Positions 17,858-26,767 of a stretch of 46,400 nucleotides of DNA are shown here, piece by piece (position 1 is the stretch's first letter; each line of letters begins with the position of its first letter). Source of the stretch: an uncultured bacterium (GTDB taxonomy: Bacteria > Bacillota > Clostridia > Lachnospirales > Lachnospiraceae); NCBI GenBank assembly GCA_947651225.1, contig CANSYK010000024.1, positions 1 through 46,400 of the forward strand. The letters run 5' to 3'. A program made the position numbers and the translations under genes. The notes beneath the pieces were generated by a model, which saw nothing but the letters and a program-made list of their open reading frames with translations, was not told the DNA's origin and did no database searches.

Positions 17858-18754
17858 TTAAATTTTATTTCTGATTCTTAAAATGCTGCACCCGGTCTGG
17901 TTCAGCGGTGCTTTTTCCTGCCATGCACAGAACACATGCAGCTGCTCCGGGAAGACAGTGCTAAAGAACAGGCGTCTGGAACCGCTGTCTTTTCCGGCTG
18001 ATGTTACGTATGCCAGGACTTCCCTTGCACCGAAGATATTTGTGAGGACACGGCGGACACCCGTGTAATACTCTCCGATTTTTTCATCGGAAAGGACAAA
18101 ATCATCCCAGACAGAAAGACGACGGCCATGTTTTGCAGGCCTTCCCCTTTTTCCGGTAGGTTTTGGTGCGGGGTCATAAATAACAGAATCACATCTGGCA
18201 TTACAGATAATATCCAGGTTGGAATAGTCATTTACAACGCAGACAAGGTCTTTCTTGGCATACCAGCTGTCACATAGGATAACCACATTTTTCTTTGTGC
18301 AGAATTCAGGCATAACCTGTCGGACCATGGATGCGGCTAGTTCCAGTTTGGACTTCTTTTTCTTCCACATGCGGTACCCTAAGGGCACAGCCTGGTAAAC
18401 CACTTTGCGGCCATTCCAGACAGGGATACAAAGCATCAGGCTTACAAAGCAATGCCCATTCAAATAGTTGGAGCCATTATGTGCAGCATGGTCAAAGAGT
18501 TTTGACGCATTTTCAAACTTTTTGCCAAACTTCGGAACCATGGTATCATCAATGCACAGAAAAACCGGCTGTGATTCCAGCAGTTCAGGAATTAGTTTCA
18601 GTGCCATGGAAGCTGTAACATTCATGAATCTGGAATAATCCACTTTGGCATAAGAGCAGGCATAATAGAATGCATTCAGGGATTTTTCTGTAATTCCGGA
18701 TAAAAAATGTCTGTATAAAGAACGGATGGAATGGGCGGATTCCATCGCCAGCAT
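17858..18754 (-). mobile_element. IS with DDE transposase, C-terminally truncated
   Basis: A 298-aa DDE transposase fragment of the IS4/IS701 type. It has the first acidic pair in PVFLCIDDTMVPKFGKK, the FDHAAHNGSNYLNGHCFVSLML strand, and the second acidic residue in VVILCDSWYAKKDL. The C-terminal part with the final E (the YREK-like region) is missing: after AWQEKAPLNQTGC the frame ends, so the element lost its 3' end. The open frame extends N-terminally beyond the ATG at 18754 (FETCPLPTAESLFLLVLS fits the family). The other end lies in the gap up to about 18948, where it truncates an array gene. Confidence 0.75.
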
Positions 18755-18948: not shown

Positions 18949-19197
18949 TTACAAAAAACTTGTAAAGTGGTGTACAGTAATAGATGAATTATTTTCTATA
19001 TCAACACCAGAACAAATTGCAATATCCCCCGTTTCTTCATCAGAGCCATGCAAAATGGCTGTTGAAGTCTGTCTTATTGTCTGCGCCGCTTCTGCCACTT
19101 GTTTTGCAAAGTTTCCTCCTGCAACATTTCATTCTGTCTTTCTTGTACCATCCCTTGCTATCGGATAGTCTGTTGTTCCAATTCCACTAACACTCAT
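18949..19197 (-). pseudogene. DUF6033-like array member, dead
   Basis: From ATG 19197 the frame reads MSVSGIGTTDYPIARDGTRK, a typical start of the Lachnospiraceae family I know as DUF6033 (name from memory). It then meets TGA after KTE, and continues in frame as NVAGGNFAKQVAEAAQTIRQ. The TGA stands where relatives have Arg. The 3' part is lost where the IS begins, near 18950-18960. It has the same stem-loop leader as the intact members. Confidence 0.65.
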
Positions 19198-19231
19198 TTT
19201 TTAATTTCTCCATGGTTATCATCATTTTATT

Positions 19232-19259
19232 GGTAGTTCTTCCGTCATTCAGAACCACC
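19232..19259 (-). promoter_or_regulatory. array leader stem-loop, copy 1
   Basis: Minus strand GGTGGTTC..GAACTACC, an 8-bp stem with one G-T pair. The intervening loop reads TGAATGACGGAA. It lies 35 bases before the ATG of the dead member at 19197. Confidence 0.6.
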
Positions 19260-19296
19260 CATGCCATATAATTCTGATGAATAGTCCCTGCCAAAT

Positions 19297-19775
19297 TCAA
19301 AACGTTTGAGAACTAGCTGCCTGTGCAATTTTTTTGCTTTTTTCACTTCCTATTTCATTTGGATAACCTTCAATCCAATAGAGTGTTCTACCATCTGGAT
19401 ATACAATCATGCCTGCGCTTTTCACAGGCGCTGTAAAGCTCTTATCGCAGCCTGGTTCTCTGGACTACAAAACTCCTCTATGTCATTCAGCACCTTTTCT
19501 TTCAAAACAGGATTATTTTCCATTTTTGACAAAGCAGCCGGAGAAATTATGACGTGGTTTGTACCTCTCGAATCATTCGTCTCAAGAAACTGGTCACAAT
19601 TTACTACGTTGCCTACATTCAATGTTACATCATAGTTATCACGAATTTCTCTTGCCAACTCCCCTCCTGTGATTTTTTCAAATAATTGCCTAAAGTTGCT
19701 TTCTGCATTTTTTACTGTTGTAGTGTTTCCTTGAATCGTGGCATCTTTTAATATCCCAAGCGACTGTATATCCAT
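19297..19775 (-). pseudogene. array protein with MDIQ start, frameshifted near its end
   Basis: From ATG 19775 the frame gives MDIQSLGILKDATIQGNTTT and the array core NHVIISPAALSKMENNPVLK. At an AAA run (19435-19437) the frame slips into an early TGA at 19422. The one-base-corrected frame continues with PVKSAGMIVYPDGRTLYWIE and ends AQAASSQTF at 19297, giving the G.IVYPDG strand that every member has. Repaired length is about 159 aa. The first codons overlap the end of the gene upstream. No signal peptide. Confidence 0.6.
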
Positions 19776-19780
19776 ATTCC

Positions 19781-20317
19781 TCAAAAACCTCCCTTTTTCT
19801 TCTTAATATTAAAATTTGCCCCCACCAAAGAAAGTAAAACCTCTGTCTGAAATCCCGCATGGTCAGATTCATCACATGCCGAAATATTTAGATTTTTTAT
19901 TTCTGAACTATCAACGTACAATAACATTGTTTTTTTTGACTTTGGTTTTTCTTCTTCATCATCTTCCCAACCAAAATCCAAATAGTAGCCTCCTGTACCA
20001 TCTTCATGTATAAACACACCATTACTACCTTTTCCAGTGAATTTACCTGACCACGGTATATCCTCGATTGACTTATACACCTTCTGCCTGAAGGCACTAT
20101 CCTTTTTCATCCTTAATAAGGATTTCTTTGAGATAATCACATTCCTCCCACCATGTAAGTCATATTTTTCCAGCATTGCGGTATCATACATTTCTGCAAT
20201 ATCTGCGTTTTCATTCACCCGCTGTAAAATTTTCTCAAACTCATCTCCACACTTTATGCTGTTATTCGATAAATTCACAGCATTATTAATTTGTGGCAAA
20301 ATTGCCTGAATATCCAT
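19781..20317 (-). CDS. array protein with MDIQ start, 178 aa
   Basis: Function unknown. It carries the array core (RNVIISKKSLLRMKKDSAFRQ, then GSNGVFIHEDGTGGYYLDFG), followed by an acidic-basic patch (WEDDEEEKPKSKK) and a C-terminal helix region. The ATG at 20317 has AAAGG upstream and leader copy 2 before it. It is the likely sister of the next gene down, which also starts MDIQ. No signal peptide or membrane helix, so it is cytoplasmic or exported by a specialised route. Confidence 0.65.
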   Translation of the reverse strand: MDIQAILPQINNAVNLSNNSIKCGDEFEKILQRVNENADIAEMYDTAMLEKYDLHGGRNVIISKKSLLRMKKDSAFRQKVYKSIEDIPWSGKFTGKGSNGVFIHEDGTGGYYLDFGWEDDEEEKPKSKKTMLLYVDSSEIKNLNISACDESDHAGFQTEVLLSLVGANFNIKKKKGGF

Positions 20318-20356
20318 ACTACCAACCTTTCTGCATATGTTATCAATTTTAACCCG

Positions 20357-20382
20357 GCGGCTCCTCTGTCACTCAGAGCCAC
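20357..20382 (-). promoter_or_regulatory. array leader stem-loop, copy 2
   Basis: Minus strand GTGGCTC..GAGCCGC, seven pairs including one G-T, loop TGAGTGACAGAG. It precedes the ATG at 20317 by 40 bases. The middle base pair is C-G here and T-A in copies 4-6. Confidence 0.7.
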
Positions 20383-20532
20383 TCTGCTCCCCCATTCCTA
20401 TATCTGCCGGAAACCTGCCCACCTGTACCTTATTAGCGATATAGTAATTATTTATTCAGATATCCTGCTTTTCTTCGTCAGACCATATCTGTTCATAACA
20501 GCTACCAATACTCTTAAAGTTATTCACATCTT

Positions 20533-21624
20533 CTAAGCCACAGTTGAAATATTTGATATTTCATCCGATACTGTATCCATTTCAGCATCAGCAGAAGGCA
20601 TATTATTATCGGCATCCTGCTCTGAATTTTCATTTGGTGCTTCTGTTGGCTTAGAAATTTCCAAACTCATGGTAGTTTCCATTCCTCCGATACTCATTGT
20701 CATCATAAGCACTCTTGAACCATCTGGCTTAACAATAATCTCTGTTGTTGTTTCAGATTCCTGGCTACCTGCCTGTTCCAATTCCTCGTTGTTCTGTAAC
20801 CAGCCGAAAATTGCTTTATAAATATCTTCTGAAAACCGAACACTCCAATTATTCTTATAATTTTCATTGTCATTATAGGACATGCCATCAAATCCCATAG
20901 AAATAATCCCATTATCCGTGCGCTGTGCCAGCCCTTTTATTTCCAAATCAGCCCATATGTAAGCGGCATTTTTATCATGTATCAGATTTGGATATTTATT
21001 GAAGTAGGTTTCCGCCAACGCTTCATACTTCTTTATATCCGCCTGGCTCTGTAAAAGGACTTTGCCACCACGACCTTCCTCTCCTGCCCGCACAAGATAC
21101 TGTATGCCCGTACCGGAATGTGTCCTTAAGGTAAATCCCTGCAATTCCTCCGTTTCCAGCGTTTCAACACCCATAACATTCTGCAGTGCATCTTTCAGTT
21201 CGCCGTCCATCACCATAGCATCATAACTCATGGTTCCATGCTCCGAAATCAAAAACTGTTTACCTGTCGTGCTGTCCTGCCTGACCTTGATATCTGAATA
21301 TTCAAAAGCGCCTATCCGTTCTCCCTGCTTATTGTAGATGTCAAAGCAGCCAGCCTCATTGTCCGGCACAATCCTGTAATTCTCAGATTCATATGTTTCA
21401 TAGGCAGGCTTTACATTACGTACCGTCGATGCTACCGATGCACGATATGCCTCCAATGCAGAATTTTGTCCTGTCCCCCTCACACCAACTCTTTGAGGAA
21501 GAACACTCCCCACCGTATCTACACCAACCATCTTGTTTGCAAAGCCTGTTCTCGAACCATTCTTCTGCACCTTTTCTGTTTCCTGCCATGCAGAATAACC
21601 CACTCCAATTCCATTTATGCTCAT
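20533..21624 (-). CDS. large array protein starting MSINGIG, 363 aa
   Basis: The longest member. It begins MSINGIGVGYSAWQETEKVQ, the family start. A central region holds FDIYNKQGERIGAFEYSDIK and KNAAYIWADLEIKGLAQRTD, and a C-terminal strand IIVKPDGSRVLMMTMSI corresponds to the PDG strand of the others. It ends in an acidic, Asn/Asp/Glu-rich tail. It has no signal peptide or membrane helices. GGAGGAATAG precedes ATG 21624, and leader copy 3 lies upstream. The stop is TAG with TGA three codons later. Role unknown; the family is found in motile Lachnospiraceae. Confidence 0.65.
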   Translation of the reverse strand: MSINGIGVGYSAWQETEKVQKNGSRTGFANKMVGVDTVGSVLPQRVGVRGTGQNSALEAYRASVASTVRNVKPAYETYESENYRIVPDNEAGCFDIYNKQGERIGAFEYSDIKVRQDSTTGKQFLISEHGTMSYDAMVMDGELKDALQNVMGVETLETEELQGFTLRTHSGTGIQYLVRAGEEGRGGKVLLQSQADIKKYEALAETYFNKYPNLIHDKNAAYIWADLEIKGLAQRTDNGIISMGFDGMSYNDNENYKNNWSVRFSEDIYKAIFGWLQNNEELEQAGSQESETTTEIIVKPDGSRVLMMTMSIGGMETTMSLEISKPTEAPNENSEQDADNNMPSADAEMDTVSDEISNISTVA

Positions 21625-21652
21625 TTTTCTATTCCTCCATTATTTTTAATCT

Positions 21653-21706
21653 GGCGGCTCCTCTGTCATTCAGAGCCGCCATGCCCACTATAGTAAGTTC
21701 GGGCAT
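21653..21706 (-). promoter_or_regulatory. array leader, two stem-loops, copy 3
   Basis: Minus strand first ATGCCC..GGGCAT, then GGCGGCTC..GAGCCGCC (8 perfect pairs, loop TGAATGACAGAG). It sits 29 bases before the ATG at 21624 and after the stop of the upstream member. Confidence 0.75.
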
Positions 21707-21714
21707 ATCCTGTT

Positions 21715-22437
21715 TTACTCCAAAATACCCGCTGCTTCCATAATGTTCTGTTCATATGCCGCAATCGCAGACCCCATAACTTCTGGCATAGCCGTAAATG
21801 TATACATATTTATATCCATTGTACGGTTAGCAAGAGCCTCTGCCATAGTCTGCTTTTTATAAGCTATCTCAATCTGCCGTCTCCGTTCCTCTGCTGCTTC
21901 ATGACTGCGTTCCAGACTTGCTTTCCGCTGTGCCGCTTCTTTCTCCCGTTTTGCTTTATTGATTTCATTAACCTCCCTTACCCGTTCTGGTGAATCACTG
22001 CAGCCACCGATATACGTTACACTTCCATCTTCATGGACTACCACACCGCCCGGTTCATAGACAAGTCCCTTTGCCGCAAACGAAGCCGTCAACATTGGAG
22101 TGGCATTGAAGAAATCATCTATCTTGCCCTCATAATAAGCTGCCTTTTCCGGATCATTTGCCATCTGCTCCACTATGTTTGGTGCAATCACAACATCACT
22201 TCCACTCATACTCTTTCCAATTCTGTCAAGACTTTGCTGATCTTTCCCAACACTCTGGATTCTCACGTTACCATACTTTGACTTTAAATATTCTGTATAG
22301 GCATCTACCTTTGATGTGCCTGTTTTCTGCAACTTGTCTATAAAATTAGTCCCATTTGTATCTGCTTTATTAACATCTTTTGACACTGCATACTGATATG
22401 CACCTGCCAAAGCTCCATTCACTCCAAAAATGCTCAT
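21715..22437 (-). CDS. array protein starting MSIFGVN, 240 aa
   Basis: It begins MSIFGVNGALAGAYQYAVSK, nearly identical to the neighbour at 23275, so the two are a recent duplication. The core reads DVVIAPNIVEQMANDPEKAA followed by VYEPGGVVVHEDGSVTYIGG. A basic coiled-coil region (KAKREKEAAQRKASLERSHE) leads to the end NIMEAAGILE. AAAGGAGAG precedes ATG 22437 and leader copy 4 lies upstream. The product has no signal peptide. The conserved C-terminal YEQNIMEA element recurs in four members. Confidence 0.7.
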   Translation of the reverse strand: MSIFGVNGALAGAYQYAVSKDVNKADTNGTNFIDKLQKTGTSKVDAYTEYLKSKYGNVRIQSVGKDQQSLDRIGKSMSGSDVVIAPNIVEQMANDPEKAAYYEGKIDDFFNATPMLTASFAAKGLVYEPGGVVVHEDGSVTYIGGCSDSPERVREVNEINKAKREKEAAQRKASLERSHEAAEERRRQIEIAYKKQTMAEALANRTMDINMYTFTAMPEVMGSAIAAYEQNIMEAAGILE

Positions 22438-22473
22438 ATCAAATTCTCTCCTTTACAATCAATGCTTTCTGTT

Positions 22474-22530
22474 GCGGTTCCTCTGTCAGTCAGAACCGGC
22501 TACGCCCCCTTAATAATAAGTCCGGACATA
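22474..22530 (-). promoter_or_regulatory. array leader, two stem-loops, copy 4
   Basis: Minus strand TATGTCC..GGGCGTA (with G-T pairs), then CGGTTC..GAACCG, loop TGACTGACAGAG. It precedes the ATG at 22437. Confidence 0.75.
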
Positions 22531-22537
22531 TAATTTC

Positions 22538-23275
22538 TTATTCTAAAGTATCTGCTGCCTACATGATATTTCTCTCATAAGCCGCAACTGCCGCACTCAT
22601 AATCTCCGGTATCTCCGGTGTACCTATATATGTAAACTTGCTCATATCTGTAGTATGATTAGCAAGAAAGCCCGCCACACTTTGTTTCTTATAGAGCAGT
22701 TCCATTTGCTGTTTCCGTTCTTCTGCTGCTTTCTGGCTATGTTCCTGATACTGTCTTTTCCTTTTTGCCTTTTCTTCATCCTCGGCTTTCATTTTGGCCT
22801 CTATCTTTGCCCTTACTTCCGGTTTTAAGTCACCACTGATATAGTGTGTTACAGTACCATCCGGATGAATGACTATACCAGAGGAATGAATTTCATGCCC
22901 CATTGCTGAAAGCTCTGCCTGATACCTCGGCACTGAATTAAAATAATTCTGTATCTTTCCTTCGTAATAGGCTGCTTTCTCTGGATCATTTGCCATCTGT
23001 TCCAAAATATTCGATGCAATCACAACGTTTCCAGTTCCTGCTGTTCCTGCACCAATGCGGTCTATGCTACTTTGGTCTTTCCCTACATTCTGAACGGATA
23101 CACCTGCACCGTATCTCTGCTTTAGATATTCTGTATAGGCATCTACCTTTGACGTACCTGTTTTCTGCAACTGGTCTATAAAATTTGTCCCATTTATATC
23201 TGCTTTATTGACATCTTTAGATGCTGCATACTGATATGCACCAGCCAAAGCTCCATTTACTCCAAAAATACTCAT
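22538..23275 (-). CDS. array protein starting MSIFGVN, with in-frame TAG near the end
   Basis: The sister of the 21715 gene: same start, core NVVIASNILEQMANDPEKAA and SSGIVIHPDGTVTHYISGD, basic coiled coil, then ERNIM. A TAG at 22559-22561 follows, but the frame continues AADTLE and stops with TAA at 22538, exactly matching the sister's NIM-E-AAGILE. So TAG stands where the sister has Glu, and Gln would fit. With termination at TAG the product is 238 aa; with read-through it is 245. Start supported by AAAGGAGAG. Leader copy 5 lies upstream. Confidence 0.7.
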
Positions 23276-23313
23276 ATTAAATTCTCTCCTTTACAATCAA
23301 TACTTTCTGTTGC

Positions 23314-23367
23314 GGTTCTTCTGTCAGTCAGAACCGATTATGCCCCCTTACAATAAGTCCGGGCATA
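23314..23367 (-). promoter_or_regulatory. array leader, two stem-loops, copy 5
   Basis: Minus strand TATGCCC..GGGCATA (perfect), then CGGTTC..GAACCG, loop TGACTGACAGAA. It precedes the ATG at 23275. Confidence 0.75.
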
Positions 23368-23383
23368 TTTATCATAGTCCCCC

Positions 23384-24187
23384 TTATGCTTCCACAAAGT
23401 TCTTCTCATAAGCCGCAGAAACCGCTTCCCTTGCTATGCTAGTCGTCTTATAATATCTTTCATCTTCCTGCTGCTCCCGTAATTTCCGCTTGATTGCGTT
23501 TTCTTCGGCAATCCGTTCATATTCTGCTGCTTTTTCTTCCTTTTCCCGTTTCCGTTCTGCAAGCATACGCAATTCTTTTTCAGACGGTCCCATAAAGCCG
23601 CCCTCTGTGCAGGTAGTCCAATTTGCAATTTCTCCATTTTCATCTAAACTAATCAAAACAGAAACAGCTCTAGGCGGCATTTGAGATTGTTGTATAAATG
23701 CGTCTACAGTATTTGCCACTTTTTGTGCCAGCGCAGGGTCATTGTCCATTTTTTCCTGTAAAGCAGGGGGCACAAGAACTGACTTTTTCCCGAATGTAGA
23801 TTGATACCTTGCTTGACACTCCTTACTATTCATTGCCGGCGCTGCACCGCTCGGCTTCCAGTTTACCACTTTATCATAATCTACATTATCATCAAAAAAC
23901 TTTTCAAAAGGGAAATCAGTCCGACACCATATGCCAGACGGAATTTTTGAGGCGTCCACTTGATGAATTTTCATTTCGGGATATTTCCCCTTCATCATTT
24001 CCTCAAAACCCTGTCCTGTTACAGTTCCCGCTGCTTTTGTCGCCGCAAGTTCCGCAAAGTTCACGCCGCCGCTTTTCCCTGTTTCCTGCAACTGCTCCGT
24101 AAAACTTGTTCCACTTGCGGCTGCTTTTTGTGTCCTGTTTGCATATTGGTATGCACCCAAAACATCATTAACTCCTAAAATACTCAT
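23384..24187 (-). CDS. array protein starting MSILGVN, 267 aa
   Basis: It begins MSILGVNDVLGAYQYANRTQ. The middle has SGIWCRTDFPFEKFFDDNVDY, shared with the next member (NWQRNDFPFWKYFDKN), and the core KSVLVPPALQEKMDNDPALA with the strand VSVLISLDENGEIANW. A charged coiled coil (RKREKEEKAAEYERIAEENA) and AYEKNFVEA end it. It differs from the MSIFGVN pair by the extra DFPF region and forms a second subgroup with the 24309 gene. Leader copy 6 lies upstream. Confidence 0.7.
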   Translation of the reverse strand: MSILGVNDVLGAYQYANRTQKAAASGTSFTEQLQETGKSGGVNFAELAATKAAGTVTGQGFEEMMKGKYPEMKIHQVDASKIPSGIWCRTDFPFEKFFDDNVDYDKVVNWKPSGAAPAMNSKECQARYQSTFGKKSVLVPPALQEKMDNDPALAQKVANTVDAFIQQSQMPPRAVSVLISLDENGEIANWTTCTEGGFMGPSEKELRMLAERKREKEEKAAEYERIAEENAIKRKLREQQEDERYYKTTSIAREAVSAAYEKNFVEA

Positions 24188-24223
24188 ATTAAATTTTCTC
24201 CTTTACAATCAATACTTTTGTTG

Positions 24224-24279
24224 CGGTTCCTCTGTCAGTCAGAACCGACTATGCCCCCTTGATAATAAGTCCAGACATA
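24224..24279 (-). promoter_or_regulatory. array leader, two stem-loops, copy 6
   Basis: Minus strand TATGTCT..GGGCATA, then CGGTTC..GAACCG, loop TGACTGACAGAG. It precedes the ATG at 24187. Confidence 0.75.
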
Positions 24280-24308
24280 TGTTTATTATTTCTTAGAAAC
24301 AAGGTTCC

Positions 24309-25289
24309 TCATAATTCCATAATATTCTTTTCATACGCATTGAACACTACCTGATTTACCAAGTTTCTCTTATAGCATCGTTCTTCTATCTCCTGCTCCA
24401 ACATCTTCCGTTTCAAAGCACTTTTCTCCGCCAATTTCTCATATTCAGCGCACTTTGCTTCTCTCTTTTTGCGTGCCTCTACAAATTCAGATGATGAAAC
24501 GGTAATCCGTCCGGGACCGGTAACAGTGCAGTTCCGCACATCCCCATTTTCATCCAAATCAAATACATAGCTTTTTCCTGCCTGATGTTCTGCTACGTTA
24601 TAACCATAAGATGCTGCCACTGTGTTATCCCATCGGTCATAATCCTCCTTCCATGCCTGCAGCTTTGCCATTATCTGCCGGGCATACTCAGGATCTGCAT
24701 CCATCTTCTGCTGCAAACTCTCTGGTACAAGGATTGCAATCCGTCCAGAGCCTACACTATTATAATTCCTTTGCAAGTCACTACGCATCTGCGATGGATT
24801 TGCTCCTTCAGGTTTCCAATCATTCAAAGCATCCGCACTTGTATTCTTATCAAAATACTTCCAAAACGGGAAATCATTTCTCTGCCAGTTGCCGGAAGAA
24901 ATATTGGCATTTCCCACATGGGTTATAACATCGTATTGTGGAAAAGCATCTTCAAAATTCGTTGCACCTGCTTTTCCAGTGCTGTATGCCTTGCTAATAG
25001 TTGAAATATAATCTGTAGCACCTGCCATTTTCTTTGCATAAGCTGTCTGAAAAGCACTTGCTGCCGTTTTATCCGTTATTTTACTTATACGTTCCTCATA
25101 AGACTCACCCATATAGTGATTGGCGCCAGTTGTCCTCATTTCATTAACACTTCTCAATGAGGCCTCCTTCTCTGCTGCTTTTGTCGCTGCAATTTCTGCA
25201 AAACTTCTGTCTGCATTCTTTTCTTTCATTGTACTGGTACGGCTGCCTATACCATACTCCCACAATTTACCTGTCACTCCAAAATCCAT
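24309..25289 (-). CDS. array protein, first after the kinase gene, 326 aa
   Basis: The start is placed at ATG 25289 (MDFGVTGKLWEYGIGSRTST) because AAAGGGGG lies seven bases before it. It overlaps the end of the histidine kinase gene, so it is in that operon and has no leader stem-loop of its own. It contains the DFPFWKYFDKN region, the core GRIAILVPESLQQKMDADPE and KSYVFDLDENGDVRNC, a basic coiled coil, and ends NAYEKNIMEL. It has no signal peptide. It is the link between the two-component genes and the array. Confidence 0.65.
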   Translation of the reverse strand: MDFGVTGKLWEYGIGSRTSTMKEKNADRSFAEIAATKAAEKEASLRSVNEMRTTGANHYMGESYEERISKITDKTAASAFQTAYAKKMAGATDYISTISKAYSTGKAGATNFEDAFPQYDVITHVGNANISSGNWQRNDFPFWKYFDKNTSADALNDWKPEGANPSQMRSDLQRNYNSVGSGRIAILVPESLQQKMDADPEYARQIMAKLQAWKEDYDRWDNTVAASYGYNVAEHQAGKSYVFDLDENGDVRNCTVTGPGRITVSSSEFVEARKKREAKCAEYEKLAEKSALKRKMLEQEIEERCYKRNLVNQVVFNAYEKNIMEL

Positions 25290-26767
25290 CTTCATTCCCC
25301 CTTTCATTTTTCATCATCATGGACAGAATGAACACCCTGCCCTTGACCATATAATCCATTGTCCCATGATACTTCTCTACCGTATTTTTAATGTTTGCAA
25401 GCCCCATCCCATGATTTTCCTTATCCGGTTTATCTGTCACTGGAAATTCCTCCCGTGGCCTCCTCACCAGTTTCCCATCAATGCTGTTCTCCACCTTCAG
25501 TACAAGAAGATTTCCTTTCTGCAAGGTCACGAACCGGATAAAAGCATCCGCTCCAGGTTCCTTTTCTTTCAGTTTCCTGCACGCCCGAACGGCATTGTCA
25601 GCAGCATTGCCAAGAATAATCCCTATATCGTAACTGTGGATTTTCAAATCCTGCGGAAACACCAGCTTATCCGCATCCATCTCCAAGTCCGGAACAAGCC
25701 GCACCGCCTCATGGTATTTCATGTTAAGCAGAGTATCCGCCACTGTATTCCCTGTGCGAAAACGCATATCTAACCGGTCAAAGGTCTGGTTCAAATCAGC
25801 CAAATATTCCTGCAGCTCCCCTTTTTTCCTCCATAGAAAGCTGCCCAATCACGGCAAGGGTGTTTTTCATGTCATGTTTCATGCCCCGTATCGCAGAGTA
25901 GATACGTTCCATTTCTTCCATATGTTCCTGCAGGCTTCTTACCTGGTTTTTCAAGATAACCCTCTCACTTTTTGCCTTGTTCCGGTAAACCATATCCTGA
26001 AACAGCTTTACTCCATACAGAATAGAAAGCAGAGACAATAGCAGGATTGCCGGAAGTACGATGGTCAGTATGGGATACCTGTCATACAGCATTTTCGGTA
26101 CATTATCCTCCAGTGTCACCATGATAATCCGCAACAGTACACAAATAAGAAGCCCCGCTGCTGCCGGGATAAGAAGAAACATCAACTCTGTCCTATGAAT
26201 TTTATAATCCTTTTCCTTAAAATCCCTTACAATCTTTCGCAACGATATAAATAACAGCATGGCAATTACCAGATATTGAAAAATCTGCACTGCCAACATA
26301 CTGCCGTTCAGTGTCATCATAAGAGCCCTGTCTGACTTAAAAAGCCCTTTCTCTACACACCGATTCCATATAGCAGCCACGCCATCCCCCATTATAGCCA
26401 GCAGGATAACGGCGGCGTATTTGCTAATATCTGCAACTGCCTGAAAAGCTACTACAAGAAAAACTGTAATCAGACGGAATGCTTTGTAAAAGCACAGGGC
26501 AAGAACAACTAAAATGCAAAGCGACAATGCCAGTTTCCATACCGCCTCTCTGTAACCGTTATATCCCGTACCCAAAACTTGATTAAACATCCCTGATATT
26601 CCATACAGCCCTGCCGCATACAAAACTGCCACACACAGGCCATTCCACCGGCTTTTCCATCTGCTTTCCAAAAAGCTCCCCAAAAAATACTGCAGGCAGT
26701 ATCCTTGAAACAAAACTACAGCCATATATAACAGTTCCACCATTTTATACACCGGGTATCCCTCCAT
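25267..26767 (-). pseudogene. GHKL histidine kinase (Agr/Lyt type), frameshifted
   Basis: An AgrC/ComD-like sensor kinase. The N-terminal half has about six membrane helices (ELLYMAVVLFQGYCLQYFL onward) and the dimerisation segment with the phospho-acceptor IRGMKHDMKNTLAVIGQLS. The frame then breaks at a six-A run (25822-25827). The corrected frame gives the ATPase domain: GIILGNAADNAVRAC (N box) and NHGMGLANIKNTVEKYHG (G box). It overlaps the response regulator upstream and the first array gene downstream. The shift could be a real inactivation or an assembly error in a homopolymer. No AgrB or AgrD gene is nearby. Confidence 0.75.

Follow-up and report, generated by a model that had tools for sequence, protein, structure and literature searches.

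A stretch of 46,400 nucleotides from an uncultured Lachnospiraceae bacterium (GenBank contig CANSYK010000024.1; hereafter the window) carries a gene array in which the same two-hairpin leader recurs six times ahead of start codons, raising the question of what this leader is and what might act on it. The original prediction, made from the letters of the window, took it for an RNA structure under selection and possibly a new regulatory RNA. This idea is supported here and reaches far beyond the window locus, with a link to the flagellar hook that the original prediction did not contain. Sequence comparison indicates that the window leaders are diverged copies of an RNA that mainly resides in the leader of the flagellar hook gene, flgE. 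Although few bacterial operons are better studied than the flagellar operon of Firmicutes, the conserved structured RNA right before the hook gene in many of them appears to have gone undescribed; it offers a handle on how hook protein supply matches export and assembly.

The window leaders belong to an RNA found before flgE

Each element is composed of two hairpins. Hairpin 1 contains an outer stem, a 5′ GGA facing one or two 3′ purines, and an inner stem that reads CTTA/TAAG in leaders of the window type and CC/GG in those of the flgE type, with the consensus GCY-GGA-CC...GG-R-RGC. In hairpin 2, 5-8 pairs form a freely varying stem that carries a loop of 12 bases, which is UGANUGACRGAR in the window and relaxed to YGA-N-YGA-Y-NGA-N outside it; at a guess, the G-A steps of this loop could form sheared pairs. 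All six window leaders are found where they had been placed, on the minus strand, as are the genes of 19.1-25.3 kb: a search with the 18-base core, allowing up to three mismatches, gives seven window matches (shuffled mean 0.63, maximum 3), six of which are the leaders, and alignment agrees. The core TCTGA-N-TGAC-[AG]-GA is present in 6/6 leaders, and the hairpin 2 stem changes in exactly the compensated manner claimed, being GGCTC/GAGCC in copies 2-3 and GGTTC/GAACC in copies 4-6, while copy 1 has GGTTC/GAACT, one of whose pairs is G-T. Hairpin 1, originally reported for copies 3-6, is distinct in these four and present in degenerate form in copies 1-2.

A covariance-model search, set beforehand as the test of the idea, returns abundant matches outside the locus. 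The exact core pattern occurs at 7 sites in the own genome; counting that genome among its 61 relatives, 13 have matches, many of these being apparently due to chance; in L018, a locus from another family of the same order, a core match lies between the TIGR02530 gene and flgE, after flgD. Model R1, built from 10 sequences including window copies 4-6, detects 9 copies in the own genome, one of them at its own flgE (C3:51868), and matches 133 of 397 family genomes at E≤0.1. We examined 107 R1 matches in the window and in loci picked among the R1 hits, 73 sources in all: flgE lies directly behind 20 of them, each in a different genome, and many of the rest stand ahead of short proteins beginning M-[SN]-[IV]-x-G-[IV]. 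Model R2, built from these 20 flgE leaders, was run on 245 genomes of the window's order, of which 121 match at E≤0.1 and 106 at E≤1e-3, at least four of the latter (G000, G039, G145, G302) having contributed training sequences; in the window's class, 112 of 393 genomes match at E≤0.01. Most matching genomes in both searches have one match each. Because some matches at 0.1 per genome are due to chance, our conclusions rest on those at E≤1e-3 or 0.01.

The named genomes were also scanned with a pattern in which the flgE consensus loops are fixed and the hairpin-2 arms are almost free, the counts representing a sample. At least 120 sites were found, and among the matches listed, 108/120 precede a FlgE/F/G-type N-terminus, by eye mostly FlgE; the rest comprise one FlgK-like gene (L187), one site running off the contig end and 10 sites unassigned by script. 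Inspection of these 10 by eye identifies four as chance matches (L206, L234, L253, L261), three as lying before other proteins (two sites in L256, one in L266) and one as flgE-like (L228), while the remaining two (L180, L207) have TIGR02530 upstream and no downstream gene picked. Listed sites come from Lachnospiraceae, Clostridium, Moorella, Desulfotruncus, Sporomusa, Tindallia and Caloranaerobacter, as well as from the Bacilli Alkalibacillus, Cytobacillus, Aquibacillus, Trichococcus, Peribacillus and Halalkalibacter.

From the AGA of the hairpin-2 loop to the start codon, the median distance is 40 bases (108 sites among the matches listed), and the upstream stop codon starts 5-9 bases before GGACC in 89/120 pattern sites among the matches listed (L160-L278), which places it within the 5′ arm of hairpin 1 or next to it. 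In flgE leaders, hairpin 1 usually starts close to the TIGR02530 stop codon or right at it. The element holds a constant position before homologous genes, as cis-regulatory structured RNAs do, and its likely ancestral site is the rod/hook operon, with TIGR02530 on one side and flgE on the other.

Several occurrences depart from the common form or setting. In family f17 (L280, L285, L286, L295), hairpin 1 is kept together with a short YYGAAGY-like hairpin-2 loop, and R2 scores these weakly or misses them; L287 has a normal hairpin 1 followed by a hairpin 2 with mirrored GA units (AGA ... UGA). In L222, L227 and L260 the element stands before flgG-like genes, and in L187 before a flgK-like gene, in place of flgE. 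A Caldithrix metagenome-assembled genome (MAG; L184), which is outside the Firmicutes, has element, TIGR02530 and flgE together, possibly through a binning error. Three pattern matches (L307-L309) lie on IMG/VR viral contigs.

Compensatory changes support an RNA structure

The 20 flgE leaders show 92.3% standard pairs among pair cells and 65 double changes. None of 500 shuffles reaches their standard-pair share, double changes or covariation score, and slid versions are far worse. Three of five covariation measures therefore exceed all shuffles, whereas the two cruder ones, pairs with a double change (142/500) and pair types (36/500), are not clearly beyond them. All seven hairpin-2 pairs have changes on both sides, and the loops are near-invariant (GGACC; GA, TGA and GA in hairpin 2) under freely varying arms.

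A second comparison covers 117 distinct sites of the 120 listed, chance ones included, for which the pattern itself fixes the loops and one hairpin-2 arm base. All five inner hairpin-2 positions pair in 86% of these sites, with shuffles well below. In hairpin 1, positions 4 and 5 pair in 86 and 83% of them, as compared with 60 and 44% after shuffling; the inner positions are pattern-fixed or near constant. Covariation, which might have vanished with more sequences, thus persists in both sets, which overlap, at least four pattern leaders (L188, L201, L208, L268) being the same sequences as in the 20-leader set. As the sequences are related, the counts of pair changes are not independent events, yet the arms still differ widely between families. 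Single-sequence folding gives a z of -4.2 for copy 3, and the remaining five copies lie between -2.0 and +0.4; being unremarkable for most copies, it leaves the evidence for structure comparative rather than thermodynamic. Collectively, the alignments show more compensatory change than chance would give, across many genomes, as expected of a cis-regulatory structured RNA.

Comparison with known RNA families

Rfam 15 gives no match at gathering score for the window and eight loci. At E up to 10, there are six matches in window positions 19100-24400, two on L018 and four on L181, all far below gathering; the best on L181, a Tetrahymena snoRNA model (E 0.0086), reaches 22.5 of 75 bits and was rejected. 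The mini-ykkC (guanidine-II) and TwoAYGGAY RNAs are likewise pairs of small neighbouring hairpins whose loops are conserved; the leader differs from them in loop sequences and has no match at gathering score. Termite-flg (RF01729) and flg-Rhizobiales (RF01736) resemble the leader by name as flagellar-gene-linked candidate structured RNAs, the former from termite gut only and the latter from Rhizobiales, according to the available part of the survey that describes them (PMC2864571), in which they are the only flagellar RNAs named. At E up to 10, two flgE leaders and window positions 19100-24400 match neither of the two models. The main texts of two further structured-RNA surveys do not mention flgE, flagella or the hook; DUF6033 and TIGR02530 have no mention in the literature searched, which left out most subscription papers; and among the best-ranked literature listings, consisting of titles and abstract openings, no paper title concerns a hook leader RNA. 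A two-hairpin leader before the hook gene is apparently undescribed.

TIGR02530 is a candidate partner of the leader

The gene directly upstream of flgE encodes TIGR02530, which family libraries describe merely as a flagellar protein. Among the 245 genomes of the order, TIGR02530 is found in 132 and csrA, the partner suggested by the original prediction, in 157. Genomes with the element at E≤1e-3 have TIGR02530 in 106/106 cases and csrA in 103/106, and at this threshold the element occurs in 0/113 genomes without TIGR02530. This absence is not mere loss of flagella, because 29 of the 113 carry FlgE/F/G (searched in 44 chosen genomes of the 245, 44/44 positive). The same 29, from eight families (f1, f2, f5, f13, f16, f17, f19, f20), are those of the 113 that have csrA; weak R2 matches (E 0.005-0.08) appear in three of them, and the best R1 match has an E of 0.076. 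Conversely, 26 TIGR02530 genomes have no match at E≤1e-3; junctions were examined by eye in 17 of these, and 16 retain hairpin 1, have an ordinary hairpin 2, or combine hairpin 1 with an altered hairpin 2, whereas one (L281) has no visible element. The three csrA-free element genomes (L290-L292) are also read as carrying the element by eye, two with a changed loop; two of the three are 93-94% complete, and the gene absence may reflect incompleteness.

Some observations qualify this association. The main caution is physical linkage, since a TIGR02530-type C-terminus lies directly upstream in 108/120 sites listed. In addition, three genomes at E≤0.01 and eight at 0.1 have the element without TIGR02530, perhaps as chance matches, and the L227 genome, a MAG with the element at its flgG-like gene, has no TIGR02530 in our search. 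However, copies of the element at flgG (L222, L260), at flgK (L187) and at other genes (L256) are unlinked, TIGR02530 being on another contig, and in the L187 genome TIGR02530 precedes an element of its own; such copies help against the linkage caution.

The predicted fold of TIGR02530 weakly resembles RelE/ParE, with an extra N-terminal arm that distinguishes it from this superfamily; sequences of solved structures give no match at E up to 1. The arm bears a motif in which F is invariant (60/60, median residue 36) and L follows four residues later in 56/60. No sign of toxin-antitoxin pairing is seen at the TIGR02530 loci examined. From co-occurrence, it is fair to infer that TIGR02530 is the best candidate to bind the leader, and the family thereby gains a testable role. 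A literature listing suggests that TIGR02530 is also found in Geobacter.

A proposed protein-bound leader and its alternatives

Most likely, the leader is a site of post-transcriptional control over exported proteins of the hook type. We favor, with a probability of about 0.5, a flagellar-hook-regulon RNA that would be bound by a flagellum-specific protein, likeliest TIGR02530, setting translation or stability. The two-hairpin leader would act within the mRNA, upstream of the Shine-Dalgarno sequence, and the protein would bind the leaders of hook-type mRNAs; the putative binder, TIGR02530, is small and combines a RelE/ParE-like predicted core with an N-terminal motif resembling an export-gate signal. 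What the comparison establishes is the structure, by covariation, the genomic placement and the co-occurrence; protein binding and the identity of the protein are inferred. The comparative evidence supports well the notion of a protein-bound leader that may set mRNA translation or stability, while the direction of control and the coupling to export are speculation. One such scheme, tentative and as a whole rather doubtful, takes TIGR02530 for a flagellum-specific RNA-binding regulator with a RelE-like fold that senses the gate: its N-terminal motif would dock at the export gate, hook synthesis would follow the gate state and be confined to times when the gate accepts hook protein, and the Lachnospiraceae would have enlarged the regulon with a family of exported proteins. 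FlgM export releases the flagellar sigma factor, and a gate-sensing TIGR02530 would be the post-transcriptional counterpart of FlgM.

A leader that needs no protein is an unlikely but substantial alternative: translational coupling, ribosome standby, or mRNA processing or stability could set the hook-to-rod ratio within a long operon transcript. With the upstream stop inside or next to the hairpin 1 arm in most sites listed, a terminating ribosome would open hairpin 1, and the Shine-Dalgarno sequence, unpaired in the predicted folds of copies 4-6, is free at the regular distance before the start codon. Yet near-invariant loops under freely varying arms resemble a recognition site, and the window leaders begin 6 to about 125 bases past the preceding gene, so stop-codon coupling is not required there. 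The loops likewise speak against a DNA-level operator, which we regard as hardly credible: inverted repeats are of course present in the DNA as well, but the element is mostly operon-internal, sits at a fixed offset to the start codon and tolerates G-U pairs, and its kept loops and free arms are the reverse of operator dyads.

Binding by CsrA (with FliW), as for Bacillus subtilis flagellin, is quite improbable, and the original suggestion of CsrA finds poor support. The parallel is attractive in that the CsrA/FliW flagellin leaders (hag, fliC) of Firmicutes are also structured leaders of an axial protein gene with likely post-transcriptional control of an exported subunit; CsrA acts on those of B. 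subtilis and, by prediction, of C. difficile (PMC8523840). Here, the gene is that of the hook rather than the filament, the loops are different, and the GGA at the loop-stem boundary of hairpin 2 (AGAGGA), on which the suggestion rested, is not conserved: copy 5 has AGAAGA, and across the 117 sites listed the loop ends in G (47 sites), A (34), T (23) or C (13). Hairpin 1 does keep a GGA in most aligned copies, and CsrA could possibly act through it; this GGA is placed at the stem edge, which departs from the CsrA consensus given in PMC7652899 (ANGGAN in a hexaloop, or RUACARGGAUGU), so that neither hairpin offers a conserved GGA in a small-hairpin loop. Although csrA accompanies nearly all element genomes, three lack it, and 29 genomes combine csrA with FlgE/F/G yet have no element at E≤1e-3; the element tracks TIGR02530 better than it tracks csrA.

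In favor of a riboswitch or small-molecule sensor of motility status, which we judge very unlikely, the two-hairpin RNA is compact, its internal and apical loops are conserved, it is broadly distributed and it has no Rfam match at gathering score; an expression platform is not visible, however, the folds of copies 4-6 leave the Shine-Dalgarno sequence out of any pairing, and the identified targets are flagellar axial or flagellum-linked rather than metabolic. It is also distinctly unlikely that the leader is an mRNA zip code or secretion-coupling signal bringing hook-type mRNAs to the flagellar export gate. The products of its identified targets (flgE, flgG-like and flgK-like genes, and genes for proteins whose N-termini are export-like) could plausibly be flagellar export substrates, but with one match in most matching genomes, other early operon substrates such as flgD and fliK seem to have no copy.

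Genes behind the leaders in the window

The array had been described as six tandem paralogues with DUF6033-like products. Six leaders are indeed present, all on the minus strand with their genes; five of the genes are intact, while the one behind copy 1 (leader 19233..19296; hairpin 2 intact with its G-T pair, hairpin 1 degenerate, R1 29.4 bits) is a remnant (19129..19197) whose translation stops after 22 codons. Near this remnant lies a DDE-type transposase gene (17858-18754). Copy 2 (20357..20416; hairpin 2 intact, hairpin 1 degenerate, 27.7 bits) precedes a gene for 178 residues (19781..20317), and copy 3 (21654..21708; both hairpins, 50.6 bits, fold z -4.16) one for 363 residues with the N-terminus MSINGIG (20533..21624); neither product matches Pfam, DUF6033 included, or NCBIfam. 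Pfam does assign DUF6033 to the genes behind the other three leaders, all of which have both hairpins and are members of the R1 training set: copy 4 (22474..22531, 80.0 bits) before 21715..22437 (E 1.8e-30), whose product has F32-I-D-K-L36; copy 5 (23312..23368, 79.3 bits), which lacks the GGA at the hairpin-2 loop end, before 22559..23275 (E 8.2e-26); and copy 6 (24223..24280, 78.9 bits) before 23384..24187 (E 7.3e-6).

The last paralogue of the array (24309-25307) is also DUF6033 by Pfam, and the R1 search finds nothing before it. Elsewhere in the own genome, DUF6033 genes on contigs C40 and C79 have no leader in the R1 search, indicating that not every DUF6033 gene carries one, and another on C160 has no clear leader, its best R1 match scoring 17.1 bits.

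Window-type targets as predicted export substrates

It had been asked whether matches precede DUF6033-like genes. Some do, although the main home is the flgE leader: of 61 leader-bearing non-flgE proteins (at least 120 residues, duplicates dropped), 60 were used, one short protein being left out, and DUF6033 is found in 19/60, with no other Pfam family matched. A small hydrophobic residue occupies positions 3-6 in 48/48 non-redundant N-termini, a count made without a shuffled control, and FxxxPhi starts at 25-40 in 24/48 (3.3 in shuffled sequences, maximum 11 in 1000 shuffles). According to PMC8983047, early flagellar export substrates have an N-terminal hydrophobic signal and a gate recognition motif about 24 residues apart. 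DUF6033 occurs in 61/161 genomes with TIGR02530 or csrA and in 0/84 with neither, no FlgE check having been made for these 84. The predicted fold of a DUF6033 protein (pLDDT 74, residues 1-31 low) gives no useful structural match. Based on the N-terminal features and the confinement of DUF6033 to genomes with TIGR02530 or csrA, we predict that DUF6033 proteins and their leader-bearing neighbours are exported flagellar proteins. In the window's taxonomic family, the leader seems to have spread to genes for flagellum-linked proteins resembling hook-type substrates, DUF6033 among others. Long proteins of about 440-570 residues also stand behind the element in L256, L266, L057, L058 and L099 (no match in a Pfam scan for the last three), sometimes in tandem.

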